DNA of 39,734 bases, taken from positions 1 through 39,734 of the forward strand of contig JAGBZM010000004.1 in NCBI GenBank assembly GCA_017628235.1, written 5' to 3'. Within the stretch, counting starts at the first letter, position 1, and every line of letters begins with the position of its first letter. This DNA is from Lentisphaeria bacterium (lineage in GTDB: Bacteria; Verrucomicrobiota; Lentisphaeria; Victivallales; Victivallaceae). Shown here piece by piece: positions 15,228-19,560 of the stretch. The notes under the pieces were generated by a model. That model saw nothing but the letters and a program-made list of their open reading frames with translations. It searched no databases and had not been told where the DNA came from. The position numbers were made by a program, and so were the translations under genes.

Positions 15228-15701
15228 TTATTGATTTCTGCCGAGTTTGAACATTTCTTCATTGGCCGCATGCAGTTTTTCGGGGAAAGCGCGCTTCAGC
15301 GCGGCGAGGAAGAGCGATTCATCAAATTGCGGCAATTTGGCTGAGAGCGCACCCAGCAGCATCACATTGAGAGCTTTGGGGGTGGCAAGTTTATCTGTCG
15401 GCACATCTGCGGGAGCAATAACGATGCCGTCATCTTTCAATACCGGACGGGCCACATCCAGCTGGGAATCATCCAGTACCACCAGAATATCCCCTTCTCC
15501 GGCCGGAACCATCGGGCTGTTCACCTTTTCTCCGAACCGCACTTCGCTGGAGACCGAACCGCCGCGCTGACTCATACCGTGAACTTCACTCTTTTTGACA
15601 TCCAGTCCGGCAGAAAAGATGACATCCGCCAGAATATCCGTGATCTTCAAAACTCCCTGACCGCCCAATCCGGCGGCGATAATATTGGTAACTTTGCTCA
15701 T
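15228..15701 (-). CDS. iorB: Indolepyruvate:ferredoxin oxidoreductase, beta subunit
   Basis: The product has 157 residues. The N-terminal glycine loop IIAAGLGGQGVLKITDIL and KKSEVHGMSQRGGSVSSEVRFG are signatures of the gamma/beta-type domain of 2-ketoacid:ferredoxin oxidoreductases. IorB pairs with IorA to oxidatively decarboxylate aryl pyruvates (indolepyruvate, phenylpyruvate) to aryl-acetyl-CoA with reduction of ferredoxin, or to run the reverse reductive carboxylation in anaerobes. At 157 residues it is shorter than many IorB proteins (about 190-200). Only 2 bases separate it from iorA, so the two are coupled. Confidence 0.93.
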   Translation of the reverse strand: MSKVTNIIAAGLGGQGVLKITDILADVIFSAGLDVKKSEVHGMSQRGGSVSSEVRFGEKVNSPMVPAGEGDILVVLDDSQLDVARPVLKDDGIVIAPADVPTDKLATPKALNVMLLGALSAKLPQFDESLFLAALKRAFPEKLHAANEEMFKLGRNQ

Positions 15702-15703
15702 TT

Positions 15704-17281
15704 TCAGTTTTTCCCCATTTTAGCCATTTTCGCCACTGCCAGAATGCAGGGACGGCGGGCGATGATAACACTGCAGTCATTGGAAGCCAGACGCTGTTTC
15801 AGCAATTCGGCAAATTTTTCCGTTTCCAAAGTGGTATCGATCACATCACAATTGTCCACTCCGATGCCTTTAACGATATTTTCCAGAGATACTGCGTAAG
15901 CCGGAGAGTGATCCAGTTTGCGGCCGGTGGCCGGATTTTCCTGACAGCCGGTCATGGCAGTGATCCGGTTGTCGAGGATCAGAACCACATGGCCGGTGGC
16001 CGGACGGTTGTAAACCATTTCCACAATACCGTTGATACCGGTGTGCAGGAAAGTGCTGTCACCGATCACGCTGACCACTTTGCGGGCTTCATTTTCCGGC
16101 AGGCTGTGGCGCATACCCAGACCGACTGTAACACTGGCTCCCATGCAGACACAGGAATCGATTGCAGAGAATGGCGGCATGACCCCGAGGGTGTAACAGC
16201 CGATATCACCGGAAACGATGCATCCCAGATCGCGCAGGACTTCAAATGTTTTGCGGTGAGGGCATCCGGGGCAGAGCTGGGGCGGTTTGCCCGGGGCTCC
16301 GGCCGGTTCGGGGGTGGTATCTTTAGCGATCAGTTTACGGACGCGGGAAACATTCAATTCTCCGAAGCGGAACTCTTCGAGTTTATTTTCGACCTTGATT
16401 CCGGCGGCCATGATCTGTTCAAACAGCATCGGGTCGCCCTCTTCCACGATCAGACAGCGTTTGACTCCGGCAGCGAAACGGCCGATGGTCTCAAGCGGCA
16501 GGGGGTAGGTCATTCCGAGTTTGAGGACCGATGCTTCCGGGGCGGCATCCAGCACATGCTGGTAGCTTATGCCGCTGGTGATGATACCCAATTCGGAAGA
16601 ATTGTTTTTCTCAATGGTGTATTTGCCCTCTTCATTGAGCGACTGCATGGTGTGCAGATCGGCGCGCAGCCGCTTATGGGCGAGTTTGGCGAATGCCGGA
16701 ACCATCACATTGGCTTTGGGATCCCGGGTGAATGATGCCGGCTTTTTGGCCAATGGTGCATCGGCCAGACGGCGGTCGACGATACACTGGGAGTGGCAGA
16801 CCCGGGTGGTCATGCGGAACAATACCGGGCTGCGGAATTTCTCTGCCAGAGCAAAGGCTTCGCAGAGCAGATCGTAACACTCCTGGGAATCCGACGGTTC
16901 AAACATCGGTACTCCGGCGGCAACTGCGTAACGGCGGTTGTCCTGCTCATTCTGACTGGAAGCCATTCCCGGATCGTCGGCGGAAATTACCACCAGACCG
17001 CCGGGAGTGCCGCTGTAAGCGATGGTGAAAAACGGGTCGGCGGCGACATTCAATCCCACATGTTTCATGGTGGTCAGGGCTCTGGCTCCGGTATAAGCGG
17101 TGCCGATGGCCACTTCAAGGGCGCACTTTTCATTGGGGGCCCATTCGGCATTACCGCCGAGTTTGCTGAATTCGTCGAGGATCTCCGAGGAGGGTGTGCC
17201 GGGATAACCGCATCCCAGAGTTACACCGCAGTCGAAAGCTGCCATTGCGACAGCTTCATTTCCGCTTGCAAGAAGTTTCAT
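15704..17281 (-). CDS. iorA: Indolepyruvate:ferredoxin oxidoreductase, alpha subunit, lacking the C-terminal ferredoxin domain
   Basis: The product has 525 residues, with AGGAGAT 8 bases before the ATG. The N-terminus has the pyrimidine-binding domain (MKLLASGNEAVAMAAFDCG, GYPGTPSSEILDEF). A CPGCPHRK motif lies at Cys337-Cys340. The TPP domain shows SGDIGCYTLGVMPPF and VVSVIGDSTFLHTGINGIVE (the GDS...N motif). IorA usually reaches about 600 or more residues and ends in a two-[4Fe-4S] ferredoxin domain with eight cysteines. This one stops right after VIIARRPCILAVAKMAKMGKN, where that domain would begin, and iorB starts 2 bases later. Electrons must therefore pass to an external carrier or through another subunit. 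The enzyme requires TPP and is probably anaerobic. Confidence 0.92.
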   Translation of the reverse strand: MKLLASGNEAVAMAAFDCGVTLGCGYPGTPSSEILDEFSKLGGNAEWAPNEKCALEVAIGTAYTGARALTTMKHVGLNVAADPFFTIAYSGTPGGLVVISADDPGMASSQNEQDNRRYAVAAGVPMFEPSDSQECYDLLCEAFALAEKFRSPVLFRMTTRVCHSQCIVDRRLADAPLAKKPASFTRDPKANVMVPAFAKLAHKRLRADLHTMQSLNEEGKYTIEKNNSSELGIITSGISYQHVLDAAPEASVLKLGMTYPLPLETIGRFAAGVKRCLIVEEGDPMLFEQIMAAGIKVENKLEEFRFGELNVSRVRKLIAKDTTPEPAGAPGKPPQLCPGCPHRKTFEVLRDLGCIVSGDIGCYTLGVMPPFSAIDSCVCMGASVTVGLGMRHSLPENEARKVVSVIGDSTFLHTGINGIVEMVYNRPATGHVVLILDNRITAMTGCQENPATGRKLDHSPAYAVSLENIVKGIGVDNCDVIDTTLETEKFAELLKQRLASNDCSVIIARRPCILAVAKMAKMGKN

Positions 17282-17300: not shown

Positions 17301-18767
17301 TTACTGATTGGCTTCGGTGGAAAAATCGCTCAATATCTCTTCCTGAATGGCGAGTTGATCGTCAATGAGGATCTCCAGATTCTCCTTTTCCTGATGATCG
17401 GGGGTGAAACCGGGGTGATTGAGCAGTTTGAGAGCTTCATTGAGTTTGGCACTGACATCGGCCAGACGGCGTATTTTCTCCTTTTCCGCATCGTTGGGGT
17501 CGCGTTCAGCGGCTCCGAGCAGCGACAGGTAGTCCATCCGGCGGGAGACTGCCTCCATGATCTGGGAACGGAGTTCCGCTTTGGGTTCATCATCCGCGCG
17601 GTTGTAATTTTCCATCAAGGTTTCAAAACGTTCCTCCAGGAAGTTGAGCAGCACTGCCTGCTGGGCCTCATCTGTCAGGGATATTTCGCTGCCGCCGGTG
17701 ATCCGGCTGTGGACTCCGGAGAAGTCGGTTTCCCGGCCGTATACCGCATCGAGGATGAAGCCGTCAAGTTCGGCGGCGGTCAGGGCGATCCCGGCATTGG
17801 CCAGCAGCTTGAATGGATCGTCAAGCTCGCTGCCGGAAATGGATAATCCTTCCGGCAGGATCGGGTCATCATCATCGTGACAGCCGCAATCGCAGTCGTG
17901 AGCATGTTCATGCTCCGGCATGACGGTCAATACCGCATGATCCCCCTCCGGGCGCAGCTGGACTTTTTCCGAACCGGAAATAAATTCATCGATCGACGCT
18001 CCGGGGATCTCCGGCAGACCGGCATAGTAGACCATCCACGCCAGTTGTTCAGGGATATCCGGGTAATCCTGAAATTCATCCCAGACCTTTTTGGCGGCGG
18101 CATCCATCTGCTGCAGGTACTCTTTGCGCGCCTGGAAGTGGCGGAGCGAACCGGAGAGATATTCAAAGGAGATGATGCCGTTTTCATAATCAGTTACCGT
18201 ACAGAGCAGAGCATCACCGAAAATGAACTCATGTTTCCGGTAAAAATCGGCCATATCGTAGACGGTCAGCGTTACCGAATCGGTTCTGGCTGCGCGCTGT
18301 TTGAGGATCTCATTGGCCGGATCATCGGCCAGAAAGAAATCAAAGATCTGTTCCGAACCCAGCAGGATGTGGTAGTGAAAACTGCTCCCAAGCGGAGTTA
18401 TCAGTTTTTTCATCGCTGCCGCCACGCCGTTTTGTTCGAGTTTTACAGTGGAGGGGAAAACTGTTTCCGGGACATAGGGGACAAAGCGGTGGCCGGGGAA
18501 GAGTATACCGTTGTTGATCTCCCACTCATCGGGAGTGATGACAAATTTTTTTCCGGTGAAAAAACTTTTCCGGGTGCAGCAGGACCAGTTTTCATCATGG
18601 AACAGAGTATCATCGGATGCGATAAAACGTTCCACCCGGCTCCGGAGTTCCGGCGGGGCGTCCGGCAGCAGACTCCGGGTCACGGCTTCGGCGGTGAAGT
18701 TTTTCCCGGCTCCGGCAATGGCGTTTTCAATATCCACGCTGTTGATGTTCTCCGGTGTTTTATTCAT
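17301..18767 (-). CDS. Protein of unknown function with a His/Cys/Asp-rich cluster
   Basis: The product has 488 residues, with no signal peptide or membrane helix, and is acidic. AAGGA lies 8 bases before the ATG, which overlaps the truB stop by 4 bases; iorA follows after 19 bases. Residues 20-60 include WSCCTRKSFFTGKKFVITPDEW, which reads like a small winged-helix or regulatory module. Residues 100-280 are mixed alpha/beta. A dense candidate metal-binding run lies at 286-301, with His286, 288, 290 and 297, Cys292, 294 and 296, and four Asp at 298-301. The C-terminal 150 residues look helical, with coiled-coil potential (EERFETLMENYNRADDEPKAE). I recognise no family. Placement between truB and iorA says little about function. 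Confidence 0.7.
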   Translation of the reverse strand: MNKTPENINSVDIENAIAGAGKNFTAEAVTRSLLPDAPPELRSRVERFIASDDTLFHDENWSCCTRKSFFTGKKFVITPDEWEINNGILFPGHRFVPYVPETVFPSTVKLEQNGVAAAMKKLITPLGSSFHYHILLGSEQIFDFFLADDPANEILKQRAARTDSVTLTVYDMADFYRKHEFIFGDALLCTVTDYENGIISFEYLSGSLRHFQARKEYLQQMDAAAKKVWDEFQDYPDIPEQLAWMVYYAGLPEIPGASIDEFISGSEKVQLRPEGDHAVLTVMPEHEHAHDCDCGCHDDDDPILPEGLSISGSELDDPFKLLANAGIALTAAELDGFILDAVYGRETDFSGVHSRITGGSEISLTDEAQQAVLLNFLEERFETLMENYNRADDEPKAELRSQIMEAVSRRMDYLSLLGAAERDPNDAEKEKIRRLADVSAKLNEALKLLNHPGFTPDHQEKENLEILIDDQLAIQEEILSDFSTEANQ

Positions 18768-19510
18768 AATGTGATTCCTTCTGAAAGTTTGACCAGCCGT
18801 CCGGCCATCATCGAGGTGAATTGATCCTGATCCATCGCTTTCAATTCATCGATCGTGACGGCATCGCGGATGGAAAATTTTCCGCAGCGGGTACGGTGCA
18901 GGGCAGTCAGAACCCCGCCGCAACCGAGTTTTTTCCCGATATCGGCGGCCAGTGTGCGGACGTAAGTGCCTTTGGAACAGTCAACGATAAAATCCACTTC
19001 CGGCAGTTCCATGCGGGTGATCTCCAAGCGGCTGACTTCGATTTCCCGGGCTTCTCTTTCGATTTCGACGCCCTGTCTTGCCAGATCGTAAAGTTTTTTG
19101 CCGCCGACTTTGACCGCCGAATACATCGGCGGCATCTGCATGGATTTGCCCCGGAATGAAGCAAATGCCGCTTCGGTGTCAGCGGCAGTAACATCGACTG
19201 CGGCGCGACTGACAACCTTGCCGTCCAGATCTCCGGAATCAGTTTCCACTCCCAGCATCAGCGAACCGGTGTACTGTTTGTCCACTCCGCTTAATCTGCC
19301 GCTTAACGAGGTGAATTTTCCCAGCACCAGCAGCAGCAATCCGGTGGCCATCGGATCAAGAGTACCGCAGTGTCCGACTTTGGGGACATTGAACCGGGCG
19401 CGGACAAAATTGACCACATCAAAACTGGTCCAGGTCGCCGGTTTATCCACCGGCAGCACGCCGCAGGCTTTGCACTCCGGCAGCCGGTGTTTTTTCGGGT
19501 TGTAACGCAA
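18764..19510 (-). CDS. truB: tRNA pseudouridine(55) synthase TruB
   Basis: The product has 248 residues from a TTG start at 19510, which has AAAGG 8 bases upstream; another TTG at 19531 adds seven residues but lacks a ribosome site. The family signature GVLPVDKPATWTSFDVVNFV precedes the catalytic motif GHCGTLDPMATGLLLLVLG with Asp52. YTGSLMLGVETDSGDLDG, MPPMYSAVKVGGKKLYDLAR and DFIVDCSKGTYVRTLAADIG are further conserved TruB blocks. The enzyme makes pseudouridine 55 in the T-loop of tRNAs. The N-terminal KKHRLPECKACGV contains a Cys-x2-Cys that is not typical. Its stop overlaps the next gene. A weak promoter may lie within the end of the upstream membrane-protein gene, so it is unclear whether this is the same transcript as pyrH-lpxA. 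Confidence 0.94.
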   Translation of the reverse strand: MRYNPKKHRLPECKACGVLPVDKPATWTSFDVVNFVRARFNVPKVGHCGTLDPMATGLLLLVLGKFTSLSGRLSGVDKQYTGSLMLGVETDSGDLDGKVVSRAAVDVTAADTEAAFASFRGKSMQMPPMYSAVKVGGKKLYDLARQGVEIEREAREIEVSRLEITRMELPEVDFIVDCSKGTYVRTLAADIGKKLGCGGVLTALHRTRCGKFSIRDAVTIDELKAMDQDQFTSMMAGRLVKLSEGITL

Positions 19511-19560
19511 AATAAAAACCTTTCTTTCCAAGTTTACTGTTCAGTATATAATGTAGCACG

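Follow-up and report, generated by a model that had tools for sequence, protein, structure and literature searches.

Disordered stretches rich in histidine, cysteine and acidic residues, variable among close relatives and attached to a conserved core, have been described for the tails of the proteins SlyD and HypB (PMC7055735). A histidine stretch is likewise carried by about 40% of the COG0523 sequences analyzed in another study (PMC2770081). P0001, a protein of 488 amino acids encoded at 17301..18767 on the minus strand of the window (the whole stretch of DNA analyzed, 39,734 nucleotides), is comparable to both systems. Its linker is, like the SlyD and HypB tails, disordered, rich in His, Cys and acidic residues and variable beside a conserved core, and, as in COG0523 (CobW-type) proteins, only part of the family bears the stretch (26 of 75 members, compared with about 40%). 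The differences are equally clear. While the SlyD and HypB tails are terminal, the stretch in P0001 is internal and links two domains; the P0001 core is neither an FKBP nor a G3E GTPase, neither core being found in the 75 members in NCBIfam or among the 25 of 31 Pfam families listed, and nickel-hydrogenase maturation genes are mostly absent. In contrast to COG0523, no GTPase domain was found in P0001, and its stretch is central and mixes His with Cys.

The P0001 family and its His/Cys/Asp stretch

The first-pass annotation had placed here a 488-residue open reading frame for a soluble protein of no recognized family, with four His, three Cys and four consecutive Asp clustered at residues 286-301. 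This description holds: the coordinates are right, the strand is minus, the frame opens with ATG, and the family is without a named model in Pfam, NCBIfam, PHROGs or PDB sequences. On the plus strand, the same frame of 17301-18767 is interrupted by a stop. The cluster, HEHAHDCDCGCHDDDD (17865..17912, minus strand), is a putative metal-binding linker composed of four His, three Cys, six Asp (four of them in a row) and one each of Glu, Gly and Ala; it contains three of the six cysteines of the protein, and in the P0001 lineage it takes the form H-x-H-x-H-D-C-D-C-G-C-H. Its composition is non-random: in 20,000 shuffles of the residues of P0001 itself, 16-residue windows with at least seven His or Cys appeared at a frequency of 0.0002, and none reached 13 His, Cys or Asp. 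The protein has a pI of 4.52 and is acidic throughout, both putative nucleic-acid domains included.

Relatives of P0001 were found by protein search in 55 of 60 related genomes, and those bearing names come from Lentisphaerae/Lentisphaeria and Victivallis MAGs. In a sample of 387 genomes from across the phylum, a profile of 75 rows detected the family in 102; its presence is near-complete in Victivallales-like Lentisphaeria, the order of the source genome, and scattered outside it. The 75-row set comprises 78 family rows minus two short L089 fragments and the shorter second L046 copy, with P0001 in place of L001; the further genomes retrieved by the 387-genome profile search were fetched in part. 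Across these rows E83 is invariant, and the columns conserved in at least 90% include F70, F75, P79, P91, G92, R94, N152, D171, G184 and D185, together with E333, D366, E382, D393 and R400 toward the C-terminus, so that conserved columns flank the cluster on both sides. No description of the family was found in a literature search conducted mostly at the level of titles and abstracts, and no relatives were found in the viral contigs scanned. Second, more divergent copies occur in some genomes (G056, G041, G039, G299, G307, G367 and G373). Moreover, in L085, L086 and L088, which are distant relatives from other parts of the phylum, a PRiA4_ORF3 domain (PF07929) comes after the family region, whereas P0001 stops after its helical domain; the source genome contains no PF07929 match.

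Linker state across relatives

The cluster lies in an inter-domain linker, residues 284-306 (17850..17918, minus strand), which is predicted to be disordered (block pLDDT 30-36) and has low identity in the source clade. Among the 75 relatives, the His and Cys residues of this linker number zero in 39 rows, one in 10, two or three in none and 4 to 24 in the remaining 26, and a C-x-C motif is present in 25 of the 26 His/Cys-rich rows versus none of the 49 others. The median length of the linker is 42 residues in the rich rows versus 22 in the others, and its acidic fraction is 0.27 in both classes, which suggests that His and Cys were added to a linker that was already acidic. When the linker columns are left out of the tree, the His/Cys-rich state changes at least five times, a rough minimum from a quick tree with long branches in which gain and loss look alike. 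The lineages bearing this state are the P0001 clade (12 rows), family f4 (10 rows), L093 with L095, L096 and L042, and in the two larger ones it is kept in every row (12 of 12 and 10 of 10). Within the P0001 clade, linker identity is 0.40 versus 0.72-0.73 in the flanks, yet all 12 linkers retain at least two His and a C-x-C; a segment that drifts while keeping these residues would appear to be held for its composition, as in a metal-binding tail.

This comparison does not support a reading in which the cluster is a metal site conserved throughout the family. With 49 of 75 relatives having a plain acidic linker with at most one His or Cys, and with homologs of about the same length in this state (e.g., L029 and L035/L036), which is the outcome that the first-pass annotation had named as refuting its reading, the family cannot depend on the cluster as its essential site. 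The aligned sequences indicate instead that the His/Cys stretch is an optional linker, acquired or dropped several times among relatives. Within a short stretch of evolution, in other words, one linker of a conserved protein has had a segment of metal-binding type switched on and off, and the 26 relatives with the cluster and 49 without it constitute a natural test set.

The style of the motif is met again elsewhere in these genomes. In the source genome, C-x-C-G-H-x-H gives four matches versus none for the reversed control. Three of these fall in the tail at the N-terminus of a P-type ATPase (PF00122), and the fourth, C-F-C-G-H-S-H, belongs to a different protein; the ATPase with three C-x-C-G-H-D-H motifs is encoded at 34685-36238 on contig 23 of G000 (L148). 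The looser H-x-C-x-C DNA pattern gives 100 matches in the source genome and is too permissive to be informative. Across the order, the C-x-C-G-H-x-H DNA pattern is far more common than its reversed control, and it occurs in 97 of 100 genomes of the order sample, part of this figure being due to the C-F-C-G-H-S-H protein. The ATPase tail, which also contains His/Asp runs, resembles the P0001 linker in its C-x-C-G-H-D-H style; it is, however, terminal and bears three motifs, while the linker has a single C-D-C-G-C-H. The tail is His/Cys-rich in most parsed relatives, among genomes with and without the linker cluster, with no clear pairing of the two; the corresponding His plus Cys medians (18.5 vs 11; 37 of 46 genomes parsed) are unreliable, as several rows were parsed in the wrong frame, e.g., G015, G010, G045, G176 and G037. 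Tails of metal style are also found on unrelated proteins, with CGCGCGCGHKH-type C-termini in L158 and L167 (family f4), which we take to belong to a pyruvate phosphate dikinase-like protein and a small FmdB-like zinc-ribbon protein. In another genus, a gene on the minus strand of L163 (about 1650-2771) with a weak DUF4380 match ends in a long Cys/His/Asp run.

Because the His/Cys content is all-or-none, recurs with C-x-C in separate lineages and has the style of the metal-ATPase tail, we infer from sequence that the cluster linker likely binds metal. The reading we favor, with somewhat more confidence than doubt, is that the cluster is a metal-buffering linker, an accessory that a protein of the translation operon has gained repeatedly, and not a catalytic metal center. 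The explanation that survives best beside it is neutral low-complexity drift, in which slippage within an acidic linker would generate His-Asp and Cys-Asp repeats that serve no function. The rapid change of linker length and order among close relatives fits such a process, as do the many relatives that manage without a cluster and the occurrence of His/Cys tails on unrelated proteins of the same genomes. Drift would not, however, readily produce two discrete states with none intermediate, C-x-C in nearly every rich linker, retention in all rows of two clades, or His mixed with Cys in place of His runs alone, and we regard it as a doubtful explanation, albeit one to be taken seriously.

Predicted domains on either side of the linker

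Residues 1-70 (18558..18767, minus strand) are predicted to form a winged helix-turn-helix, a fold lead based on an AlphaFold model of residues 1-284 with a mean pLDDT of 61.0, in which residues 1-50 score 74-87 and residues 51-70 score 64-66. For this region the VIA-align rows show winged helices, among them Fur, Fox proteins, RNA polymerase delta, RNase R and SelB, with Z of about 4.8-5.9. At the sequence level, winged-helix Pfam matches are weak, with HTH_20 in two of the 75 members (best E 0.027) and E2F_TDP in one.

The conserved core that follows, residues 72-208 (18144..18554, minus strand), is predicted to adopt a B3-like β-barrel. Foldseek placed B3 domains first in both models (mean pLDDT about 61), with E-values of 0.036-0.13 and probabilities of 0.90-0.97, and no match reached E 0.001; B3 domains also take the top five VIA places, at Z 6.1-6.3, a range to be read against the Z of 7-8 that unmatched models typically reach. 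In both models, the weak fold likeness is to plant B3 DNA-binding domains and to the N-domain of the bacterial restriction enzyme LlaJI.R1. These domains differ from P0001 in that a match at the sequence level is absent, the 75-row profile finding no B3 chain and no B3 model appearing among the 25 of 31 Pfam families listed, and in that the predicted domain of P0001 is acidic. A viral fold library returned nothing clear for P0001.

Beyond the linker, residues 308-488 (17304..17846, minus strand) constitute a conserved helical C-terminal domain, predicted to consist of short and then long helices. The whole-protein model, built with seven sequences, has a mean pLDDT of 60.8, being low at residues 207-316 and reaching block values of 72-92 over residues 321-480, with one block at 60. 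In addition to the C-terminal residues listed above, D340 and Y388 are conserved in this domain across the 75 rows. UPF0149 (YgfB/YecA) came into consideration for the helical domain through a short motif likeness, a Foldseek row for 1izm (E 3.7) and one member with a Pfam E-value of 0.036, and was rejected after hhalign gave a probability of 1.7% over 45 columns, with a template of only three UPF0149 sequences.

Taken as a lead from the predicted folds, P0001 is probably nucleic-acid-associated. The acidity of the protein and of its putative nucleic-acid domains argues against plain DNA or RNA binding.

Gene neighborhood and further readings of the cluster

Immediately upstream of the P0001 gene lies truB, the gene of a tRNA-modifying enzyme (18764..19531, minus strand; TIGR00431, E 4e-71), and the translational coupling proposed for the two genes is apparent in the sequence, where the TGA stop of truB and the ATG of P0001 overlap as ATGA (18764..18767, minus strand). 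Within the family, truB adjoins the gene in 46 of 61 loci, a count that leaves aside loci below 5 kb, the duplicates L057, L058 and L090, and L089; 45 of these were scored by script, and L060, whose truB had been overlooked because a stop-to-stop ORF overran it, was corrected by hand. Adjacency to truB is seen in 19 of 20 cluster-bearing loci, and 14 of the 41 loci without a cluster are not beside truB. L047 has infB, rbfA, a DHH/DHHA1 gene that we take to be nrnA-like, truB and the family gene in that order, and in L091 a DHH/DHHA1 gene and truB precede the family gene, which is followed by a helicase. A family for which the searches returned no name, and which almost all members of an order of gut-associated bacteria possess, is found behind truB in the infB-rbfA-truB operon.

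Since the gene follows truB and elsewhere ends an infB-rbfA-nrnA-like-truB run, the core function of P0001 is probably tied to RNA or translation; this function would be independent of the cluster, which most relatives lack. Under the favored buffering reading, the disordered acidic linker would join the conserved N-terminal half (predicted winged helix and B3-like barrel) to the helical C-terminal half and, when filled with His and Cys, would be expected to take up a single soft divalent ion or a few of them (Zn, Ni, Co or Cu), discriminating only modestly among metals, like the tails of SlyD, HypB and COG0523 proteins. The bound metal would most likely be buffered or held near P0001, perhaps shifting the relative placement of the two halves. 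If the linker does gate the function of P0001, the bacteria concerned would have metal status coupled to RNA or translation. A stronger version, in which binding of Zn, Cu or Ni acts as a hinge that pulls the N-terminal half, facing nucleic acid, toward the helical C-terminal half, would make a protein of a translation-initiation and tRNA-maturation operon metal-responsive through a device inserted several times independently in one order, in the C-x-C-G-H style of the metal ATPase; we consider this improbable.

A dedicated nickel chaperone, whose linker would store Ni for delivery by P0001 to a nickel enzyme, is less probable still and in our judgment very unlikely. The linker chemistry does resemble that of the SlyD and HypB tails, but no GTPase or FKBP core was found among the families listed in the Pfam scans, and HypA above cut-off accompanied by NiFe-hydrogenase-family matches is found in only three of 21 cluster-bearing genomes (G035, G099 and G250), a rarity on which a link between the cluster and NiFe-hydrogenase was rejected. 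Among genomes without a cluster, HypA exceeds the cut-off in 10 of 31. These counts were made by hand in the genomes common to both samples, and the source genome is only 54% complete.

Downstream, the stop of P0001 at 17301 is followed after a gap of 19 bases by the ATG (17281) of an iorA-like gene (15704..17281, minus strand), so that the annotated position directly upstream of iorA is correct for the source genome. The further description of an iron-sulfur-linked enzyme operon stands as regards the neighboring iorA and is weak as regards iron-sulfur, because this IorA lacks the C-terminal ferredoxin part: it matches TIGR03336 partially, over positions 3-538 of 595, with 557.5 bits, below the cut-off of 650.9, and its translation contains no ferredoxin-type cysteine motifs at the C-terminus. 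That a metal center of P0001 serves the IorAB 2-oxoacid oxidoreductase, assisting in the assembly or filling of a cofactor, iron-sulfur or other, is the least credible reading and can hardly be right, for although the two genes are close on the same strand and iorA comes next in 23 of 59 scorable loci, the source-genome IorA lacks the ferredoxin part, the adjacency of the family to truB is far wider, and the supposed linkage of cluster and iorA breaks down in homologs, where iorA follows in eight of 20 loci with a cluster and 15 of 39 without, an equal adjacency on which it was rejected as an explanation of the cluster. The adjoining IorB (15228-15701) is short, with 157 amino acids that reach to around the midpoint of the usual profiles, and is likewise short in close relatives such as L031.
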